From: Nitratireductor indicus C115
GTDB taxonomy: Bacteria > Pseudomonadota > Alphaproteobacteria > Rhizobiales > Rhizobiaceae
Direction: 5' to 3'
Assembly (NCBI RefSeq): GCF_000300515.1
Contig: NZ_AMSI01000012.1
Span: forward strand, 62,001 to 126,000
DNA length: 64,000 nt
Shown in pieces: positions 50,325 through 59,380 of the stretch. The notes beneath the pieces were generated by a model, which was given only the letters and a program-made list of their open reading frames with translations, had not been told where the DNA came from and ran no database searches. The translations under genes were made by a program, and so were the position numbers. Numbering within the stretch: the stretch's first letter is position 1; every line of letters starts with the position of its first letter.

Positions 50325-50774
50325 TCAACTGCGGTTGAGGGCTGCCCGCTCCAGCGCTGCCAGCCCTTCCATGAGCGCCTTGCGTTCCGCAGGCTTCATG
50401 CGCTCCAGAAGGTCGTCCTCGAAGCCCCGCGCCACCGGCACCATGTCGCGATAGGCTTTTTCACCGGCCTTGCTGAGGGCGAGTTGCTCTACCCTCCGGT
50501 CGCCCGGATCTGGCTTCCGCGTCAGCCAGCGGCGCTGTTCCAGCGCTGCCACGGCGCGGCTTACCTTGGTCTTGTGCATCGAGGAATGCGTACCGATCTC
50601 CGTTGCCGTCATGGTGCCGTATTGCCCGAGTGTGGCGAGCGTACGCCATTCGGGCCGCGTGAGGCCGAGGCGGGCCCGATAGGCCTGCGAAAAATCACGG
50701 CTGACAGCATCCGTAAGTCGCGTCAGCCGGTAAGGCAGAAAGGCTTCAAGAGCCAGAATGCTGTCGTCGCTCAT
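50325..50774 (-). CDS. MarR-family regulator, probable control of the homogentisate genes
   Basis: Encodes 149 residues from the ATG at 50774. The winged helix-turn-helix contains LTRPEWRTLATLGQYG, then TEIGTHSSMHKTKVSRAVAALEQRRWL and the wing DPGDRRVEQLAL, typical of MarR. It is divergent from hmgA. The shared 113-bp region contains the palindrome GGTTGCAACC at 50845. From position it most likely represses the hmgA operon and responds to an aromatic such as homogentisate. Confidence 0.85.
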   Translation of the reverse strand: MSDDSILALEAFLPYRLTRLTDAVSRDFSQAYRARLGLTRPEWRTLATLGQYGTMTATEIGTHSSMHKTKVSRAVAALEQRRWLTRKPDPGDRRVEQLALSKAGEKAYRDMVPVARGFEDDLLERMKPAERKALMEGLAALERAALNRS

Positions 50775-50844
50775 GGTAGCTTGGCCACTCCCTGATGAAA
50801 TCCCCACTCCCGCCTCGATTGATAGTTACATTCGCCATGGTTAC

Positions 50845-50854
50845 GGTTGCAACC
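50845..50854. promoter_or_regulatory. Putative MarR operator in the hmgA promoter
   Basis: GGTTGCAACC is a perfect 10-bp palindrome located 34 bases upstream of the hmgA start codon, in the divergent promoter with the MarR gene. TTGCAA-centred palindromes are common MarR sites. GTTAC and GGTTAC words upstream (about 50825-50844) may add half sites. Confidence 0.5.
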
Positions 50855-50887
50855 AATTTGTCGTGAGTTGAAATTGGGAGGAAGGCC

Positions 50888-52201
50888 ATGGGTGTCCAGT
50901 ACATGCCGGGCTTCGGCAACGACTTCGAGACCGAAAGCCTGCCCGGCGCTCTGCCACAGGGGCAGAATTCGCCGCAACGCCCTGCCTATGGGCTTTACGC
51001 CGAACAGCTTTCGGGCTCGCCATTCACTGCGCCGCGAGGCACCAACGAGCGCTCCTGGCTCTATCGGATCCGCCCGAGCGTGAAGCATACGGGCCGTTTT
51101 AGCGCCGTGCGTTTCGATTCCTGGAAGTCCGCGCCCAATCTCGGCGATCACGAGCTGGCGCTTGGCCAGTTGCGCTGGAACCCGATGCCTCTGCCCAATG
51201 CGGAAACGGATTTTCTTGCAGGCGTCCACACGATGACGACGGCGGGCGACGCGCAGGGCCAGGCGGGAATGGCCACTCATGTCTATGCGTTCAACTCATC
51301 CATGGTTGACGATTATTTCTTCAACGCTGATGGCGAGCTTCTATTGGTGCCGCAGGAAGGCGGCCTGCGGCTGAAAACCGAGATGGGCATCATCGAAATT
51401 CAGCCGGGTGAGATCGCAATCCTGCCGCGCGGCATGATCTTCCAGGTGGAACTGATGAGCGGGCCGGCGCGCGGTTATATGTGCGAGAATTACGGGGCCA
51501 AGTTCACGCTGCCCGATCGCGGCCCAATCGGAGCGAACTGCCTTGCCAATCCCCGCGATTTCAAGACACCGGTCGCCTGGTACGAGGACAAGGAACGGCC
51601 CTGTCGGCTGTTCGTGAAATGGTGCGGCCAGTTTCATGTGACGGAAATCGGCCATTCGCCGCTCGATGTGGTGGCCTGGCACGGCAATTACGCACCCTAC
51701 AAATATGACCTGTCGACCTATTCGCCCGTCGGCGCGATTCTGTTCGATCATCCTGATCCGTCGATCTTCACCGTCCTGACGGCACCTTCCGGTGAGGAGG
51801 GCACGGCCAATATCGATTTCGTCATCTTCCCGCCACGCTGGATGGTGGCCGAGCACACCTTTCGCCCGCCCTGGTATCACCGCAACATCATGAGCGAATT
51901 TATGGGCCTCATCAAAGGCCAGTACGATGCGAAGGAGGAGGGTTTCGTGCCCGGCGGCGCATCCCTGCACAACATGATGCTGCCGCACGGCCCCGATGCC
52001 TTCGGCTTCGACAAGGCCACGAAAGCGGAACTGAAGCCGGTGAAGCTGGAAGACACGATGGCCTTCATGTTCGAGACCCGCTTTCCCCAGCATTTGACGC
52101 GTTACGCCGCCGAGACGGATACGCTTCAGGACAACTATATCGACTGCTGGAACGACCTGAAGAAGCGCTTCAACGGGACGCCGGAGGGCGACTGGTCGTG
52201 A
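50888..52201 (+). CDS. hmgA: Homogentisate 1,2-dioxygenase
   Basis: Encodes 437 residues. It opens the ring of homogentisate to maleylacetoacetate using non-haem iron. The iron ligands lie in [20 protein letters not shown] (His and Glu, shown as 20 residues) and the third in [30 protein letters not shown] near the N-terminus is the family signature. The gene has a good ribosome site (GGGAGGAA). It overlaps the MBL hydrolase gene by 4 bp (GTGA). No maleylacetoacetate isomerase gene follows. Confidence 0.97.
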
Positions 52202-53073
52202 TCGAAAGACTGGTGCTTCTGGGCACGAAGGGCGGCCCGGCGCTGAGACCGGGCGGCCCCATGCCCACCTCCTGCCTTATCGAGATCGGTGGCCGCTCGG
52301 CGGTCATCGATTGCGGCCTTGGCGTTACGAAAGGGCTGGTGGATGCCGGCCTGTCCCTGAAGGGACTGGACCTCGTTTTCATCACGCATCTTCATTCCGA
52401 CCATGTTCTCGAACTCGGCGCGCTCATTCACACAGCCTGGACAGCCGGGCTGGCAACCCCCGTTCGCGTGTTCGGGCCGGAAGGAACACGTGACGTCTGG
52501 GCTCATTTCTGCCGCTCGCTTTCCTACGATATCGAAACCCGCATCGTGGACGAAGGCCGCCCGGATATCCGTGCGCTGGTCACGGTGACGGAGTTTTCCC
52601 AAGGGCGGGTTTTCGAAGAGGCAGACCTCTCGGTGGAGGCCCTGCGCGTCGATCATCCGCCGGTCACGGAGTGCTATGCGCTGCGCTTCAACGAGAATGG
52701 CAGGTCGGTGGTCTTTTCCGCTGACACCTGCCATTTTCAGCCGCTGGCGGCGTTTGCGGAGGGTGCCGACTATCTCGTTCACGAGGCGATGTTGCTTGAG
52801 GGCGTCGACCGCCTCGTGGCCCGCACGGGCAATGGCGCGCGGCTGAAGGAACACCTCATGGCGAGCCACACGCTTGCCGAAGATGCCGGACGCATTGCAT
52901 CCGATGCCGGCTGCGCGCATCTTGTTCTCAACCACCTGATCCCCGCCGACGATCCGCAGGTCGGACCGGAAGACTGGGAACGGGCGGTGAGAACGACCTG
53001 GGAGGGTTCCCTTACCATCGGAAGGGACGGGTTCGAACTGCCGCTGAAGCGAGCGTCCGCGCCCAGAGCATGA
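52198..53073 (+). CDS. Metallo-beta-lactamase-fold hydrolase in the homogentisate operon
   Basis: Encodes 291 residues from a GTG that overlaps the hmgA stop. The dinuclear metal motif is complete: THLHSDH (His64, His66, Asp68, His69), later ADTCHF (Asp) and NHLIPADDP (His). The N-terminal [17 protein letters not shown] resembles RNase Z/arylsulfatase-like MBL proteins. It is probably a cytoplasmic esterase, lactonase or thioesterase. Its place between hmgA and fahA suggests a role in ring-cleavage product handling, but this is inference. Confidence 0.83.
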
Positions 53074-53083
53074 AGGAAACAGC

Positions 53084-54091
53084 ATGAAACTTGCCACGCT
53101 CAAGAACGGCAGGCGCGATGGCCGGCTGGTCGTCGTTTCGCGCGATCTGACGCGCTTCGCCGACGCCTCGTTTCTTGTCCCCACGCTGCAGGCAGCACTC
53201 GATGACTGGGCGCGCATCGCTCCGCATCTGGCGGCGCTTGCCGAAAGTCTGGAGCACGGCGCGGTTCCCTCGGACCGCTTCCACGAGCATGACGCCATGT
53301 CGCCCTTGCCGCGCGCCTACCAGTGGGCCGATGGCTCTGCCTACGTGAATCATGTGGAACTGGTGCGCAAGGCGCGCGGAGCGGAGATGCCGGAGAGCTT
53401 CTGGACCGATCCCCTGATGTACCAGGGCGGCTCCGACAGTTTTCTCGGGCCCCGCGATCCCATCGTCATGGCCGATGAAACCTGGGGCATCGACATGGAG
53501 GGCGAAGTCGCCGTCATCGTCGACGATGTGCCGATGGGCGCTTCGCCGGATGAAGCGCGCAATGCGATCCGCCTCGTCATGCTGGTGAACGACGTCTCGC
53601 TGCGCGGTCTCATTCCGGCGGAACTGGCCAAGGGGTTCGGCTTCTTCCAGTCGAAGCCTTCCTCGGCCTTCTCGCCGACCGCCGTGACGCCCGACGAACT
53701 CGGCGATGCGTGGGATGGCGGCAAGCTGCATCTGCCGCTTTCGGTGGATTACAATGCCAGGCCTTTCGGCAGGGCCAACGCCGGCATCGACATGACCTTC
53801 GATTTCCCGGCGCTGATTGCCCATGCGGCAAAGACGCGGCCCCTCTCGGCGGGCACGATCATCGGTTCAGGCACCGTGTCCAACAAGCTCGATGGCGGCC
53901 CCGGCAAGCCGGTGGAGGAGGGCGGTGTCGGCTATTCCTGCATCGCCGAAATCCGCACCATCGAGACCATCGAGGACGGCAAGCCGAAGACACCCTTCAT
54001 GCGCTTCGGTGACACGGTCCGCATCGAGATGCGCGACGAGCAGGGGCACTCGATCTTCGGCGCCATCGAGCAGCGCGTCGAGCAGGGATAG
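53084..54091 (+). CDS. fahA: Fumarylacetoacetate hydrolase
   Basis: Encodes 335 residues. It splits fumarylacetoacetate to fumarate and acetoacetate. The FAH fold is visible in WGIDMEGEVAVIVDDVPMG (metal glutamates), LVNDVSLRGLIP, GFFQSKPSSAFSPTAVTPDELG in parts, and the SAGTIIGSGTVSN motif. It is the shorter FahA form common in rhizobia. It follows the MBL gene by 10 bp and precedes a small membrane protein gene by 11 bp. Confidence 0.95.
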   Translation: MKLATLKNGRRDGRLVVVSRDLTRFADASFLVPTLQAALDDWARIAPHLAALAESLEHGAVPSDRFHEHDAMSPLPRAYQWADGSAYVNHVELVRKARGAEMPESFWTDPLMYQGGSDSFLGPRDPIVMADETWGIDMEGEVAVIVDDVPMGASPDEARNAIRLVMLVNDVSLRGLIPAELAKGFGFFQSKPSSAFSPTAVTPDELGDAWDGGKLHLPLSVDYNARPFGRANAGIDMTFDFPALIAHAAKTRPLSAGTIIGSGTVSNKLDGGPGKPVEEGGVGYSCIAEIRTIETIEDGKPKTPFMRFGDTVRIEMRDEQGHSIFGAIEQRVEQG

Positions 54092-54102
54092 GGGGCGACG
54101 GG

Positions 54103-54450
54103 ATGAGCCTCTCGCCGCTTCAGCGCCTCGTGCTTCTCTTCGCGCTTTTCAATCTTGCGGGAATACCGTTTCTGCGCTGGGTGCTGCGGCCGGCCTTCGT
54201 CTACCTTAACGATGCACCGCCCTATTGGCCGAGCGTTGTGCTGGGGATCGGCTTCATCCTTTTCGTCATTGCTGTGAACATCTCTTTCACGGTTCGTGCT
54301 TCCCGCGTCGAGGGAAACGCGGCGCCCGCCCGCATTATGGCAGGCTGGACTGTCTTTTCGGCAATCTGCGGTCTCCTTCTTGGGGCCGTCAGCCCCTGGT
54401 CGATCATGCGCAGTCTCGCGCTGATGGTCAGGCTTCAACTGGGTTCATGA
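54103..54450 (+). CDS. Small membrane protein of unknown function
   Basis: Encodes 115 residues with three hydrophobic segments (about 8-28, 42-65, 78-100). The N-terminus MSLSPLQRLVLLFALF looks like a membrane entry. No family is recognised. It lies between fahA and the second MBL gene, so it belongs to the same operon. It could be a transporter part or an unrelated insertion. Confidence 0.6.
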   Translation: MSLSPLQRLVLLFALFNLAGIPFLRWVLRPAFVYLNDAPPYWPSVVLGIGFILFVIAVNISFTVRASRVEGNAAPARIMAGWTVFSAICGLLLGAVSPWSIMRSLALMVRLQLGS

Positions 54451-54463
54451 GGATAATCGTATA

Positions 54464-55414
54464 ATGGCCAAGACATTCGCTTCCGCCGGCGATCTCACGG
54501 AAAAGAAGATCTCTTTCGATGAGATCGGCAACGACCTGTGGGCCTTCACCGCTGAAGGCGATCCCAATTCGGGCATCATTATCGGCGACGAATCGGTGAT
54601 GGTGATCGAAGCGCAGGCGACGCCGCGTCTTGCCGAAAAGGTTATTGAGAAGGTGCGTTCGGTCACGGACAAGCCGATCAGCCATCTGGTGCTCACCCAT
54701 TACCATGCGGTGCGGGTTCTCGGTGCGTCCGCCTATGGCGCCCCCAACATCATCATGAGCGACAAGGCGCGCTCCATGGTGGTGGAACGCGGACAGGAAG
54801 ACTGGGATTCCGAGTTCGTGCGTTTCCCGCGCCTCTTCCAGGGGCATGAATCGATCCCGGGCCTCACCTGGCCGACCACCACCTTCTCCAATTCCATGAC
54901 GGTCTATCTCGGCAAGCGGCGCGTCGATCTGATGTTCCTGGGGCGTGCTCACACGGCTGGCGATATCGTCGCCTTTGTGCCGGACGCAAATGTCATGTTT
55001 ACAGGCGATATCGTGGAATATCATTCCGCCTGCTATTGCGGTGATGGCCATTTCCATGACTGGCCTTCCACGCTCGAGGAAATCCGCGCGTTCGATCTGG
55101 ATGCCATCGCGCCGGGCCGGGGCGATGCCCTCGTCGGAGACGCAATGGTCAATGACGCGCTCGATCTGACTGGCGATTTCGTCATGTCCACCTATCAGCC
55201 GGTGGCACGCGTGGCGCAGGGCGGTGGCACTCTGAAGGAGGCGTGGGATGCCTGCCGCGCATCCTGCGACCCAAAATTCGCCGATTACGCCATCTACGAA
55301 CATTGCCTGCCCTTCAATGTCGCGCGCGCCTATGACGAGGCGCTGGGTATCGATACGCCGCGCATCTGGACCGCCGAACGCGACAAGGCCATGTGGGAGG
55401 CGTTGCAGGGCTGA
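54464..55414 (+). CDS. Metallo-beta-lactamase-fold protein with atypical metal site
   Basis: Encodes 316 residues. The fold is clear, but the first metal motif is THYHAVRVLG: His79 and His81 are kept, whereas the Asp and second-site His of HxHxDH are Val83 and Arg84. Further ligands are the His in GRAHTAGDIV and the Asp in MFTGDIVEYHS. A single-metal site is likely. The C-terminal 90 residues are specific (ARVAQGGGTLKEAWDACRA). It precedes the flavin monooxygenase gene, and a role in aromatic breakdown is inferred. Confidence 0.8.
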   Translation: MAKTFASAGDLTEKKISFDEIGNDLWAFTAEGDPNSGIIIGDESVMVIEAQATPRLAEKVIEKVRSVTDKPISHLVLTHYHAVRVLGASAYGAPNIIMSDKARSMVVERGQEDWDSEFVRFPRLFQGHESIPGLTWPTTTFSNSMTVYLGKRRVDLMFLGRAHTAGDIVAFVPDANVMFTGDIVEYHSACYCGDGHFHDWPSTLEEIRAFDLDAIAPGRGDALVGDAMVNDALDLTGDFVMSTYQPVARVAQGGGTLKEAWDACRASCDPKFADYAIYEHCLPFNVARAYDEALGIDTPRIWTAERDKAMWEALQG

Positions 55415-55422
55415 GCCGAATT

Positions 55423-55454
55423 CAAGGCAAGGCAAGGCAGGGCAAGACGAGGCA
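55423..55454. repeat. Degenerate 5-bp repeat
   Basis: CAAGG is repeated three times in exact form (55423-55437), followed by CAGGG, CAAGA, CGAGG and CA. It lies just after the MBL gene and before the DinB-like fragment. Confidence 0.8.
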
Positions 55455-55525
55455 CAGAAATCCGCCCCGGAACGCTGGCGAGGAGGCCGCACGGGGATAT
55501 GGAACAGGTCAAGAGGGAGGAGTGC

Positions 55526-55714
55526 ATGTCGGCACAGGCTGCCTTGATGCGCCGGATGGCGCGCAACAATCGCTGGTCGAGCGACCGGCTTTATCGCGCC
55601 GTGCTTTTCGATAGCGCCGTGAAGCCGCCGCCCCGCGATGAATTTCATACCGGCTTCGGTGTACCTTTGCGGGGTGAGGAAATGATCGGGTTCCAACTGG
55701 ACGGCGAACGCTGA
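55526..55714 (+). pseudogene. DinB-like N-terminal fragment (decayed gene or small protein)
   Basis: Encodes 62 residues behind a strong ribosome site (GGGAGGAG). The first about 27 residues, MRRMARNNRWSSDRLYRAV, resemble the first helix of DinB/YfiT-family proteins, which are normally about 150-180 residues long. The rest does not look like DinB and no other frame restores it. It is therefore either a truncated remnant or a new small protein using the same start. It overlaps the flavin monooxygenase start by one base, so translation may still couple. DinB proteins include thiol-dependent maleylpyruvate isomerases, which would fit the missing isomerase step, but this is speculation. Confidence 0.45.
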
Positions 55715-57333
55715 TGCCGCGCTATTCCTACGAACCCTTTGCCTACACCACACCGCCCGAGATTGCCGGTGGCCCGTCGGGCCAATATCCCGTCGCCATC
55801 GTGGGCGCCGGGCCTGTCGGTCTTGCCGCAGCGATAGACCTCGCCCAACGCGGTGTACGGGTGGTCGTTCTCGATGACAATGACGTGGTTTCCGTCGGCA
55901 GCCGTGCCATTTGCTGGTCGAAACGCACGCTTGAGATTTTCGACCGGCTGGGCGTCGGCGAACGCATGGTGGAAAAGGGGGTGACCTGGAAAGTCGGCCG
56001 TCTCTTCCACCGCGAGCGCGAGGTGTGGAGCTTCGATCTCCTGCCCGAGGATGGGCACAAGATGCCGGCTTTCATCAACCTCCAGCAATATTACGTCGAG
56101 CAATATCTGGTGGAGCGCGCTGCGGCCCTTCCGGAGTTTATCGATTTGCGCTGGAAGAACCGCGTCGTTTCCGTTGAGCAGAGTGCCGGAGATGTGCGCC
56201 TCGGCATCGAGACACCCGATGGGCCCTACCATCTCGACGCTGCCTATGTGCTTGCCTGCGACGGTGCGCGCTCGCCGCTGCGGGCGATGCTTGGCCTCGA
56301 TTTCGAAGGGCAGGTTTTCGAGGAACGCTTTCTCATTGCCGATGTCGAAATGAAGGCGGATTTCCCGTCGGAGCGCTGGTTCTGGTTCGAACCGCCTTTC
56401 CATAAAGGGCAGTCGGCGCTGCTTCATAAACAGCCGGACGAAATTTACCGCATCGATCTCCAGCTCGGCCCGGATGCGGACCCGGAGGAAGAGAAGAAGC
56501 CTGAAAACGTCATTCCGCGCATAGCCAGGGTGATCGGTCACGACCGTTTCGAACTCGATTGGGTCTCCGTGTATACATTCCAGTGCCGCAGGCTTGCCCG
56601 GTTCGTGCATGGGCGGATCATCTTCGCCGGAGACAGCGCCCATATCGTTTCGCCGTTCGGTGCGCGCGGCGGCAATGGCGGTATCCAGGACATCGACAAT
56701 CTTTGCTGGAAGCTCGCTCTGGTCATACACGGCGAAGCGCCCCCCAGCCTGATCGCCACCTATGACGAGGAGCGCATTCACGGGGCGGATGAGAATATCC
56801 TGAACTCCGCGCGCTCCACCGGCTTCATGACACCCAAGAGCGAGATGGTGCGCATTTTTCGCGACAGCGTGCTTGAACTGGCGGCGGATCACGCGTTCGC
56901 TCGCCGGCTGGTCAATTCCGGCCGACTGTCGAAACCCTGTTCGCTGGCGGGTTTTTCGCTTCAGACGCAGCCGTCGCAGGCCGAGGGGCTGGAGCCGGGA
57001 ACGGTCATGCCCGATGCGCCTGTTCTGGATGGATCAGAACACGGTTGGCTTCTCAACCGCATCGGAAACGGGTTCGCGCTTCTGGCGGTCGATTGTGCGC
57101 CGCCCCCGGGTCTGCCAGCCGGGCTGCATGTGGTTCAGACGGTACGCGACGGGCAAGGTGCGGCTGCGGATGGGGTGACGCGCCTTGTCGATGCGCAAGG
57201 CCGTGTTGCCGAACGATATGGCGCTGGATTGCTCTATCTCGTGCGTCCGGACCAGCATATTGCCGCGCGTTTTCGCCATGCCGATGGGCAGGAGATTGCC
57301 GTGGCCATGATGCGCGCCATGGGGAGGGAATGA
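55714..57333 (+). CDS. Class A flavin monooxygenase (aromatic hydroxylase, MhaA-like)
   Basis: Encodes 539 residues. FAD-binding GAGPVG at 31-36, the DG motif CDGARSPLR near 180 and the GD motif FAGDSAHIVSPFGARGGNGG near 305 place it with aromatic-ring hydroxylases such as MhpA. The C-terminal thioredoxin-like region is present. It is followed two bases later by a DUF2783 gene, the same arrangement as the two-component 3-hydroxyphenylacetate 6-hydroxylase (MhaA/MhaB) of Pseudomonas putida U, whose product is homogentisate. Homogentisate genes nearby support this. Confidence 0.82.
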   Translation: MPRYSYEPFAYTTPPEIAGGPSGQYPVAIVGAGPVGLAAAIDLAQRGVRVVVLDDNDVVSVGSRAICWSKRTLEIFDRLGVGERMVEKGVTWKVGRLFHREREVWSFDLLPEDGHKMPAFINLQQYYVEQYLVERAAALPEFIDLRWKNRVVSVEQSAGDVRLGIETPDGPYHLDAAYVLACDGARSPLRAMLGLDFEGQVFEERFLIADVEMKADFPSERWFWFEPPFHKGQSALLHKQPDEIYRIDLQLGPDADPEEEKKPENVIPRIARVIGHDRFELDWVSVYTFQCRRLARFVHGRIIFAGDSAHIVSPFGARGGNGGIQDIDNLCWKLALVIHGEAPPSLIATYDEERIHGADENILNSARSTGFMTPKSEMVRIFRDSVLELAADHAFARRLVNSGRLSKPCSLAGFSLQTQPSQAEGLEPGTVMPDAPVLDGSEHGWLLNRIGNGFALLAVDCAPPPGLPAGLHVVQTVRDGQGAAADGVTRLVDAQGRVAERYGAGLLYLVRPDQHIAARFRHADGQEIAVAMMRAMGRE

Positions 57334-57335
57334 CG

Positions 57336-57545
57336 ATGCCTGACATTGAAATCGGTCGGGACCGGCTCGGTCCAGCGGGCGACGATTGCTACGCCGCACT
57401 GATGAAAGCCCATGAAGGGCTTTCATTCGAGCAAAGCGCAAGGCTCAACGCCCGTCTCATCCTTCTGCTCGCGAACGAGGTTGGCGATGCGGATCGCTTC
57501 AATGCGCTGCTTGCGGCTGCGAGAGCCTCGGGCATTTCGCGTTAA
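57336..57545 (+). CDS. DUF2783 small protein, possible coupling subunit (MhaB-like)
   Basis: Encodes 69 residues behind GGGGAGGG (ATG at 57336). The whole protein is helical: DDCYAALMKAHEGLSFEQSA and NARLILLLANEVGDADRFNALL are the DUF2783 signature. It starts two bases after the flavin monooxygenase stop, so it is almost certainly its partner. I suggest it is the small component of an aromatic hydroxylase. The family's function is not established. Confidence 0.78.
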   Translation: MPDIEIGRDRLGPAGDDCYAALMKAHEGLSFEQSARLNARLILLLANEVGDADRFNALLAAARASGISR

Positions 57546-57655
57546 GATGCAGAGCCTTTTGTGGTCGGATGGAGACATCCGATCCACCCATCGGTACGGA
57601 AAAACGAAGATAGGGAGCGGCGACAGACGCCGCCGCTCCATTCACGTTCGGTGCA

Positions 57656-58768
57656 TCAGCCGGCTGCGTCGACCTTGATGGCGCCCCGGCGGATCTGATC
57701 TTCCTCGATGCTCTCGAAAAGCGCGCGGAAATTGCCTTCGCCGAAACCCTCGTCGCCCTTCCTTTGGATGAACTCGAAAAAGATCGGCCCAATGACGGTC
57801 TTGGAGAAGATTTGCAGGAGGATCTTCGTCATGCCGCCATTCACGACACCTTCGCCATCGATGAGAATGCCGTGTTTCTTCATGCGCTCGATGGGCTCTT
57901 CATGGCCGCTCACGCGCTCATGGCTTTTCTCGTAATAGGTGTCCGGCGGGCCGGGCATGAATTTCAACCCGTTCTCGGCGAGCCGGTCCGTGGCGTCATA
58001 GATCGCGTCGGTTCCCACGGCGATGTGCTGAATGCCTTCGCCCTTGTATTTCTTCAGATATTCGACGATCTGGCTCGTCTCGTCCTTGGATTCGTTGAGC
58101 GGTATGCGAATCTTCCCGCAAGGCGAGGTGATGGCCCGGCTGACCAGCCCGGTGATGCGCCCGTCGATGTCGAAATAGTGGATCTGCCGGAAACCGAACA
58201 GCGTGCGGTAGAAGTCCCACCACTTGTCCATGTTGCCGCGATAGACATTGTGGGTGAGGTGATCGAGATAATAGAAACCGACGCCCTCGGGACTGGGGTT
58301 GCGCTTGTCCACCCAGTCGAATTCGGCATCGTAGGCAGAACCCTTGTCGCCATAGGCCTCGATGAAATAGAGCAGCGACCCGCCAATGCCCACGATGGCC
58401 GGCACATCCAACGCCTTGTCCTTGCCCGTATACGGCTCGGCGCCGCGCGAGATCGCATGCTCATAGGCGTGCTTCGCATCCACCACGCGCCAGCCCATGG
58501 ATGGCGCGCAGGGGCCATGCAGGTCGACAAAGCGCATGGCATGGCTGCCGGGCTCTGCGTTCAGAATGTAGTTGATGTCGCCCTGCCGCCACACGGAAAT
58601 CTTCTTGCTCCTGTGTCGGGCGACTTCCGTATAGCCCATCCGGGTGAAGAGTTCGGCGAGCTTTTCAGGTTCCGGGTGGGCGAATTCGACGAATTCGAAC
58701 CCGTCCGTGCCGGCGGGGTTTTCGTCGGTAATGCGCGCCGGTGGCGCGTCGTGCGGGAAGGGACCCAT
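57656..58768 (-). CDS. hppD: 4-hydroxyphenylpyruvate dioxygenase
   Basis: Encodes 370 residues from the ATG at 58768. It converts 4-hydroxyphenylpyruvate to homogentisate, the entry to the hmgA/fahA pathway. The iron ligands are His in YYLDHLTHNVYRG, His in GIQHIAVGTD and Glu in FFEFIQRKGDEGFGEGNF. The N-terminal half is a vestigial vicinal-oxygen-chelate domain. It is convergent to the DUF2783 gene and divergent from an Lrp-type regulator, with a shared 144-bp region. Confidence 0.97.
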   Translation of the reverse strand: MGPFPHDAPPARITDENPAGTDGFEFVEFAHPEPEKLAELFTRMGYTEVARHRSKKISVWRQGDINYILNAEPGSHAMRFVDLHGPCAPSMGWRVVDAKHAYEHAISRGAEPYTGKDKALDVPAIVGIGGSLLYFIEAYGDKGSAYDAEFDWVDKRNPSPEGVGFYYLDHLTHNVYRGNMDKWWDFYRTLFGFRQIHYFDIDGRITGLVSRAITSPCGKIRIPLNESKDETSQIVEYLKKYKGEGIQHIAVGTDAIYDATDRLAENGLKFMPGPPDTYYEKSHERVSGHEEPIERMKKHGILIDGEGVVNGGMTKILLQIFSKTVIGPIFFEFIQRKGDEGFGEGNFRALFESIEEDQIRRGAIKVDAAG

Positions 58769-58888
58769 GATCTTTCTCCTCCGGTCGTGGGACGAAAGGC
58801 GCTTATGCGCCTTATGACCAAAGTTTAACCCTCCCGTCTCGCAAGCGGCTTGCATTGTGAGGCGCATTTGATGCTATTAGCGCTTGTA

Positions 58889-58898
58889 TTGTGCACAA
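58889..58898. promoter_or_regulatory. Putative Lrp-type operator between hppD and the Lrp gene
   Basis: TTGTGCACAA is a perfect 10-bp palindrome, part of the near-palindrome TATTGTGCACAAATA, located 15 bases before the GTG start of the regulator. It may bind the Lrp/AsnC protein and control it and hppD. Confidence 0.5.
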
Positions 58899-58912
58899 AT
58901 AACGGAGAAATC

Positions 58913-59380
58913 GTGGCTCAGGCGCGTATGGACGGATATGACCGCAAGATATTGTCTCTTTTGCAGGCGGATGCGCGGCATACGAACAATGATCTTGCCG
59001 AACGGGTGAACCTGTCGCCCTCGCAATGCTCTCGCCGCCGCCAGCGTCTTGAGGAAGAGGGGTATATCAAGGGATACGCCGCACTTCTGGACCGTGATCG
59101 CCTGGGCTTCGGTCTTGTCAACATTATCACCGTCACGCTGGCGACCCACAATCCCGACAATGCCCGCCGCTTCGGTGAACTGGTTTCCCGTCTGCCGGAG
59201 GTGCAGGAGGCACACGCCCTGACGGGTGAGATGGACTATATCCTGAAGGTTGTTACATCGGATCTGAAGGCCCTGTCCGAATTCGTCAACAGCGTGCTTC
59301 TGCCGCATGAATCGGTCCAGCACGTCAAGAGCGCCATCGTCCTCCAGACGTTGAAGGAGACCGGATCCCTGCCGCTCTGA
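58913..59380 (+). CDS. Lrp/AsnC-family regulator of tyrosine degradation
   Basis: Encodes 155 residues from a GTG at 58913 (GGAG upstream). The N-terminal helix-turn-helix is ILSLLQADARHTNNDLAERVNLSPSQCSRR in short segments, and the C-terminal ligand-binding RAM domain starts near residue 70 (VNIITVTLATHN, TGEMDYILKVV). It is divergent from hppD. Lrp-family regulators usually respond to an amino acid; tyrosine is a reasonable guess from the context. Confidence 0.87.
   Translation: MAQARMDGYDRKILSLLQADARHTNNDLAERVNLSPSQCSRRRQRLEEEGYIKGYAALLDRDRLGFGLVNIITVTLATHNPDNARRFGELVSRLPEVQEAHALTGEMDYILKVVTSDLKALSEFVNSVLLPHESVQHVKSAIVLQTLKETGSLPL

Follow-up and report, generated by a model that had tools for sequence, protein, structure and literature searches.

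The window analyzed here is a 64,000-nucleotide stretch of the Nitratireductor indicus C115 genome (G000), and its positions 50325–59380 hold an island of genes for homogentisate breakdown. On the plus strand, hmgA (homogentisate 1,2-dioxygenase; 50888–52201) matches TIGR01015 with 708 bits against a cut-off of 510.75 and is the sole match to this family in the genome. A MarR-family regulator gene on the minus strand (50325–50807; PF01047, 57 bits) is divergent from hmgA, and is found upstream of it in many relatives too. The next plus-strand gene, MBL1 (52198–53073), encodes an RNase Z/arylsulfatase-like metallo-hydrolase with an HLHSDH motif (PF12706, 60 bits); its start overlaps hmgA by four bases and its end lies 10 bp before a plus-strand gene for a fahA-type fumarylacetoacetate hydrolase (53084–54091; PF01557 (FAA_hydrolase), 133 bits; PF18288 (FAA_hydro_N_2), 95 bits), as a preliminary description had reported. 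The joint presence of hmgA and fahA is that of a homogentisate cluster. Further along the same strand are a 115-residue, small membrane-protein-like open reading frame (ORF; 54103–54450) that matched 0 families in Pfam and NCBIfam, and MBL2 (54464–55414), a SoxH-like MBL-fold protein (PF00753, 39 bits; TIGR04559, 100 bits, under the cut-off of 280) whose motif reads HYHAVR and lacks the usual DH. The far end is occupied by the 4-hydroxyphenylpyruvate dioxygenase (HPPD) gene on the minus strand (57656–58867; TIGR01263, 405 bits; cut-off 277) and an Lrp/AsnC regulator gene on the plus strand (58850–59380; PF13412, 71 bits; PF01037, 69 bits), both given as longest frames; the true start of the regulator may be further in. 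No RNA element reached the gathering score between 48000 and 61000. Profile searches confirmed the earlier observation that HmgA, FahA (by its FAA domains) and HPPD are encoded in the island and that a glutathione S-transferase (GST)-like maleylacetoacetate isomerase (MaiA) is absent, the contig carrying the window (C12) giving 0 matches to the MaiA family, TIGR01262.

Between MBL2 and HPPD lie, on the plus strand, the genes for a flavin monooxygenase of 539 residues (55714–57333; PRK08132, 791 bits; cut-off 416) and for a DUF2783 protein of 70 residues (57333–57545; PF10932, 67 bits). By size, order and family names the pair looks like a 3-hydroxyphenylacetate hydroxylase, its substrate being putative; these three features are what the comparison consists of. 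In the accessible sections of PMC3053370, MhaAB is the 3-hydroxyphenylacetate 6-hydroxylase of P. putida U (566 and 60 residues), and MhaAB homologues adjoin hmgABC in LB400, much as the large and small proteins here are encoded beside hmgA. Our literature search found no paper that mentions both DUF2783 and homogentisate. Immediately upstream, the DinB-like gene of the preliminary description proved not to be intact: positions 55526–55714 (plus strand) encode a 62-residue remnant in which two stretches of a DinB protein of about 178 residues can be aligned, 19 residues from its N-terminal part and 29 from its C-terminus, and the middle is missing. The two blocks score 92 and 74, compared with 47 and 46 for the best of 500 shuffles, and the gene is, judged by its sequence, a dead remnant.

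When the whole genome was searched with TIGR01262 (E ≤ 0.001), 9 matches were obtained outside C12, including one full-length zeta-class GST at 226795–227424 of another contig, C2 (267.5 bits; cut-off 171.05; match spanning positions 2–210 of 211). Its N-terminal segment RSSTSYRVRIAL aligns with mouse RSSCSWRVRIAL, the cysteine being missing, and its motif RSSTSYRVR aligns with both mouse MAAI and NagL. Active bacterial zeta GSTs that lack the cysteine catalyze the same reaction, according to the accessible sections of PMC6540824. Among solved chains, the C2 GST is closest to a maleylpyruvate isomerase (2v6k, 214.5 bits), with named maleylacetoacetate isomerases at 166 bits or less; this ranking says little, because an island MaiA also has 2v6k as its best match (157 versus 152 bits). 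The 2v6k and 2jl4 structures are of NagL. Unlike a NagL-type system, however, this genome gave 0 matches to gentisate dioxygenase (TIGR02272, E ≤ 0.001), and in close kin the GST tracks hmgA. A function of the C2 GST confined to gentisate breakdown is unsupported, since gentisate dioxygenase also exceeds its cut-off in 0 of 50 relatives (E ≤ 1e-20 in 11).

These 50 genomes were chosen from 80 loci fetched with MBL1, and all carry the island-type MBL gene. Both hmgA and MaiA are over their cut-offs in the same 47, and neither is in the other three (G189, G194 and G199), an agreement that comes mostly from one genus and from genomes that are not independent, with two metagenome-assembled genomes among the three negatives. 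Two GST copies each occur in N. luteus (G198) and P. salicylatoxidans (G182): one has a gentisate-dioxygenase-like neighbor that scores under cut-off, and the other, near an rrf2/hmuVU block, has no such neighbor. A transcript table for M. huakuii 7653R, in the accessible sections of PMC3973600, lists a maiA annotated as maleylacetoacetate isomerase. We also drew 150 genomes from the wider order and applied the curated cut-offs for hmgA and MaiA. Here the link between the two is looser than in close kin: hmgA is over cut-off in 43 genomes, 10 of which have no MaiA over cut-off, and 28 genomes have MaiA with hmgA not over cut-off.

In a tree of the GSTs, the unlinked proteins form a clade of 40 rows (support 100/96) whose sister group consists of 4 rows linked to gentisate-dioxygenase-like genes (together 44 rows, 100/98), and the main island MaiA clade (100/100) lies apart. 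Three hmgA-linked MaiAs (L046, L186 and L187) also fall on the side of the unlinked clade; the MaiA of G176 (L231), with hmgA 1.3 kb away, falls in the island clade. NagL is on the same side as the unlinked clade, on a long branch that cannot be placed with certainty, and the tree puts the clade of the C2 GST in the lineage of the gentisate-pathway maleylpyruvate isomerases. With the unlinked isomerase on the same side of the zeta GSTs as maleylpyruvate isomerase, the step has probably passed to a relative of the gentisate enzyme: Mesorhizobium, Nitratireductor and their near relatives appear to have lost the island maiA and to use a NagL-side zeta GST in its stead.

Of the readings offered in the preliminary description, an isomerase encoded elsewhere is the one that the data favor, given the C2 GST over cut-off, recovered by the genome-wide search proposed there, and the pairing of hmgA with MaiA in relatives; replacement by an MBL or DinB-like protein did not hold up. 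Substitution of MBL1 for the isomerase, or its direct cleavage of maleylacetoacetate, might be suggested by its position, overlapping hmgA and followed by fahA, and by its company: 70 of the 80 loci retrieved with it contain hmgA and a fahA of >70% identity. The mutual exclusion expected between maiA and the MBL gene at 52198 was not seen, however: the two share one locus in 5/80, MaiA is somewhere in the genome of 47/50 MBL1 carriers, and in Aminobacter (G165, G180) MBL1 lies apart from a complete hmgA-fahA-maiA island. Members of its family hydrolyze phosphodiesters and sulfate esters, we know of no precedent for a cis-trans isomerase among them, and the best solved relative of MBL1 is 8gyg, an 'arysulfatase' (84 bits). 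Given its coexistence with MaiA, MBL1 was rejected as a replacement, substitution or direct cleavage being extremely improbable; MBL1 is predicted to be an accessory protein, not the isomerase. Other ORFs fared no better as new isomerases: a 421-residue ORF between hmgA and fahA in two MaiA-less genomes (L178 and L179) matches no family and is antisense to two small minus-strand ORFs, and the 196-residue ORF that occupies this position on the minus strand of L185 is a DUF2585 protein.

A thiol-dependent DinB-family enzyme that became the isomerase, like the actinobacterial mycothiol-dependent maleylpyruvate isomerase with its DinB fold, looked strong at first. A full DinB gene follows fahA in 66 of the 80 loci and MaiA is present in 5, with both in 0/80, and its place is in or near the maiA slot of Ensifer, Sinorhizobium and Hoeflea. 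The relatives' protein (PF05163, 77 bits) has a DinB/YfiT fold in its model (pLDDT 91), with H131, H135, H138, H139 and H144 invariant across 16 rows and H50 almost invariant, and a fold search with this model listed the mycothiol-dependent isomerase 2nsf at rank 22 (E 0.02, TM 0.53). In the order draw, DinB scores at least 176 bits in 13/43 hmgA genomes versus 5/107 others, and three (G019, G101 and G132) have hmgA and DinB and no MaiA. Yet DinB is not tied to the lack of MaiA (3/10 hmgA genomes without it, 10/33 with it), G041 and G081 have island MaiA and DinB (46–47% identity) in one cluster, and MaiA exceeds its cut-off in every hmgA carrier among the 50 MBL1 genomes, whether or not DinB is there. 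In four DinB loci hmgA is not close by, and G199 encodes DinB and lacks hmgA altogether. Pfam yields DinB and DinB_2 only, not the mycothiol-dependent isomerase family, and the sequence profile finds two uncharacterized DinB structures (2qe9, 3dka) and not 2nsf (E ≤ 0.1). As the gene is dead in the window, its loss already speaks against a role in this genome, and we regard the replacement as highly improbable. It is also very unlikely that the DinB protein encoded after fahA in most fetched Mesorhizobium islands, and lost here, is a second, thiol-dependent isomerase or a partner of FahA in handling a glutathione adduct, one on which certain relatives without MaiA might depend. Such a protein would correspond, in Gram-negative bacteria, to the mycothiol-dependent maleylpyruvate isomerase; our literature search found no paper joining maleylacetoacetate isomerase, homogentisate and DinB.

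Alternatively, no isomerase may be needed, either because free glutathione isomerizes the product or because FahA takes the maleyl form, and the C2 GST would then belong to another pathway. A glutathione-dependent nonenzymatic bypass has reportedly been described in MAAI-deficient mice, and the best GST in the 10 order-draw genomes with hmgA and no MaiA over cut-off reaches 85 bits. The C2 GST gene itself has an FAA_hydrolase gene 5 bp upstream and adjoins TctCBA/TctDE-like genes, and may therefore serve another substrate. Counting for the isomerase in trans, across 30 loci (L127–L156) this hydrolase gene was matched in 22 and unmatched in 8, and the GST was kept. In the window's own lineage, hmgA and MaiA are jointly present or absent in 50/50 genomes, which makes an isomerase-free route unlikely, and action of FahA on the maleyl form is an assumption that the data do not need.

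We consider it very probable that this is an ordinary homogentisate cluster with maiA in trans. HPPD would convert the keto acid of tyrosine, and the MhaAB-like pair probably 3-hydroxyphenylacetate, to homogentisate, whose ring HmgA would open to give maleylacetoacetate; the C2 zeta GST would use glutathione to isomerize this putative substrate to fumarylacetoacetate, which the island FahA would split. These last three reactions are identical to those of the P. putida U hmgABC operon, whereas the Nitratireductor island has no isomerase gene (PMC3053370, accessible sections). The same sections describe hmgAB unlinked from hmgC in S. pomeroyi, P. syringae, R. solanacearum, B. bronchiseptica and C. 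necator, so an unlinked maiA/hmgC is an already published arrangement. As in C. necator, P. syringae and R. solanacearum, the ring-cleavage and hydrolase genes are together and the isomerase gene is elsewhere; here MBL1 separates hmgA from fahA, and the isomerase encoded elsewhere falls on the maleylpyruvate-isomerase side of the zeta GST tree.

The gap in the island most likely reflects gene order, not a lost or replaced step, because the genome and its close relatives carry a candidate elsewhere, and absence from an operon should not be taken for a new enzyme. In this lineage the tyrosine-pathway isomerase seems to have its origin among those zeta GSTs that lie on the gentisate-pathway side, and annotators should therefore read neither the gene as a gentisate gene nor the island as incomplete. 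The 10 of 43 hmgA genomes without a zeta isomerase over cut-off are a better hunting ground for an isomerase-free or differently catalyzed step.

The homogentisate island has the make-up attributed to it in the preliminary description: hmgA (50888-52201), fahA (53084-54091) and the HPPD gene (57656-58867, minus strand) are present, and the MBL-fold gene MBL1 (52198-53073) lies between hmgA and fahA. The remaining genes encode MarR (50325-50807, minus strand), a membrane-like ORF of 115 aa (54103-54450), the second MBL-fold protein MBL2 (54464-55414), a DinB remnant (55526-55714), a flavin monooxygenase (55714-57333), a DUF2783 protein (57333-57545) and Lrp (58850-59380). In sequence, the metal motif is intact in MBL1, which structure-chain comparison found similar to arylsulfatase/RNase Z structures, and the motif position of MBL2 reads HYHAVR. 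The 115-aa ORF, in the interval between fahA and MBL2, has no family match, and tblastn over 126 loci matched it only to its own locus. In size and order, the monooxygenase and the small protein resemble the MhaAB pair of P. putida U (566 and 60 aa), which forms a 3-hydroxyphenylacetate 6-hydroxylase; in LB400, homologues of MhaAB adjoin hmgABC (PMC3053370).

When the whole N. indicus genome (completeness 99.96%) was searched with the MaiA model (cut-off 171.05 bits), nine matches were obtained at E ≤ 0.001, none of them on C12, the contig of the island, and the reported lack of an island maiA was thus borne out. The preliminary description had allowed for an isomerase elsewhere, and a candidate was identified: a full-length zeta-class GST at G000:C2:226795-227424, which scored 267.5 bits, well above the cut-off, with the second-best match at only 65 bits. 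A 231-aa FAA_hydrolase gene ends 5 bp before it, and upstream are tctCBA-like and tctDE-like genes (TctC by Pfam; the other tct names are our reading). Among solved structures it matches a maleylpyruvate isomerase best (214.5 bits), ahead of the top-scoring chain that bears the name maleylacetoacetate isomerase (166 bits), and a gentisate role was therefore examined; no gentisate dioxygenase (TIGR02272) was found in the genome. That ranking is weak by itself, since the same chain is also best for an island MaiA (L109; 157 versus 152 bits). The arrangement belongs to a kind already described: several bacteria have hmgAB unlinked to hmgC (PMC3053370), and a maiA is annotated in M. huakuii (PMC3973600). 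An origin of the Mesorhizobium isomerase on the maleylpyruvate-isomerase side was not found in the literature searched, which covered few subscription papers.

In a tree of 79 MaiA proteins of fetched loci plus NagL, a maleylpyruvate isomerase, the C2 GST belongs to a clade made up of 40 unlinked rows (100/96), of which 35 come from the 50 genomes searched genome-wide. This clade groups (100/98) with four rows linked to gentisate-dioxygenase-like genes, one of these genes, in G103, being above the cut-off. A separate 15-row clade (100/100) contains 13 hmgA-linked rows and two labelled unlinked, one of which (L231) is actually 1.3 kb from hmgA. Linkage and lineage do not correspond one to one: L046, L186 and L187 are MaiAs from other families that are linked to hmgA and fall on the side of the unlinked clade. 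NagL forms a long branch meeting another long branch, and its exact placement is unsure. Of 10 twenty-kilobase stretches with the unlinked gene, 7, that of N. indicus included, have an rrf2 gene (at least 72% identity) no more than 10 kb from it, and the FAA_hydrolase gene adjoins the unlinked GST in 22 of 30 loci. P. salicylatoxidans and N. luteus carry a second GST copy adjoining a gentisate-dioxygenase-like gene, from which we infer one copy per pathway.

The proposed replacement of the isomerase by an MBL or DinB-like protein was weighed against relatives fetched with MBL1 (the best 80 of 160 loci, mostly Mesorhizobium and biased to close kin). Among these 80, hmgA and fahA accompany a full DinB in 62 and a partial one in three; four have DinB and a distant fahA without hmgA, six have neither DinB nor maiA, and none has both. 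The suggested mutual exclusion of maiA and MBL1 does not hold, as both occur in five of the 80 (hmgA being within the fetched DNA in three). Genome-wide searches of 50 of these genomes placed MaiA above cut-off in 47 and hmgA in 47, with the same three negatives (G189, G194, G199); the Fisher value of 5e-5 overstates independence because most of the 50 are Mesorhizobium. None of the 50 had a gentisate dioxygenase above cut-off, and 11 had a match to it at E ≤ 1e-20. In Mesorhizobium xinjiangense (L076) the island holds MarR, MBL1, fahA and HPPD, hmgA being absent from its place and on another contig. In four loci (L069, L099, L126 and the Aminobacter locus L112), MBL1 and DinB are clustered separately, with no hmgA nearby, together with a fahA-like gene of distant relationship (42-46% identity; its product is 247 aa long in L069), and these three products may act jointly on another substrate.

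DinB was at first a real candidate isomerase by virtue of its slot, fold and association with hmgA. In Mesorhizobium the protein (178 aa, PF05163) follows fahA; among the 66 full-DinB loci the gap is 48 bp or less in 35, whereas the others have gaps of up to 1.4 kb. Ensifer and Sinorhizobium have maiA in that slot. The model (pLDDT 91) has a DinB/YfiT fold, for which the top matches are uncharacterised DinB proteins and the lower ones (E 0.02-0.07, TM 0.53-0.58) include thiol S-transferases and mycothiol-dependent maleylpyruvate isomerase. Among 150 genomes drawn from the wider order, DinB of at least 176 bits occurs in 13 of 43 with hmgA versus 5 of 107 without. As a replacement for MaiA, however, DinB was rejected: it is equally common with MaiA (10 of 33 hmgA genomes) and without it (3 of 10), it stands beside an island MaiA in two genomes (G041, G081) that combine hmgA, fahA, MBL2, DinB (46-47% identity) and the monooxygenase, and every hmgA genome among the 50 has MaiA.

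In the window, DinB is reduced to 62 residues in one frame, of which 19 align with the N-terminal part of the whole protein and 29 with its C-terminus (block scores 92 and 74; maxima of 500 shuffles 47 and 46), and H50 and H131-H144 fall in the missing part. Its position between MBL2 and the monooxygenase is shared with Nitratireductor ZSWI3 and N. luteus, both of which carry a whole DinB; the sole genomic match at E ≤ 1e-8 (G000:C5:276472, 88 bits) is distant. The remnant's stop codon shares one base with the monooxygenase start, and translation of the remnant, as a leader, may persist.

Across the 150 genomes, hmgA was above cut-off in 43 and MaiA in 61, the two together in 33, with hmgA alone in 10 and MaiA alone in 28. 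Nine genomes (G012, G020, G027, G060, G086, G097, G098, G102, G133) encode, ~1-2.5 kb from a MaiA above cut-off, a divergent HmgA-like protein, with open frames of 392-499 aa and TIGR01015 scores of 55-78 bits, that may represent a second family of the homogentisate dioxygenase type. The ten with hmgA alone (G013, G019, G040, G051, G061, G080, G101, G115, G120, G132) are all at least 97% complete, three (G019, G040, G080) being single-contig assemblies; re-searched at E ≤ 1e-10, their top GST reached 85 bits, and G019, G101 and G132 have a DinB of 184-186 bits. As these ten show, a zeta isomerase above cut-off can be absent in the order, though it is not absent in N. indicus, and they are candidates for a pathway that is isomerase-free or otherwise catalysed.
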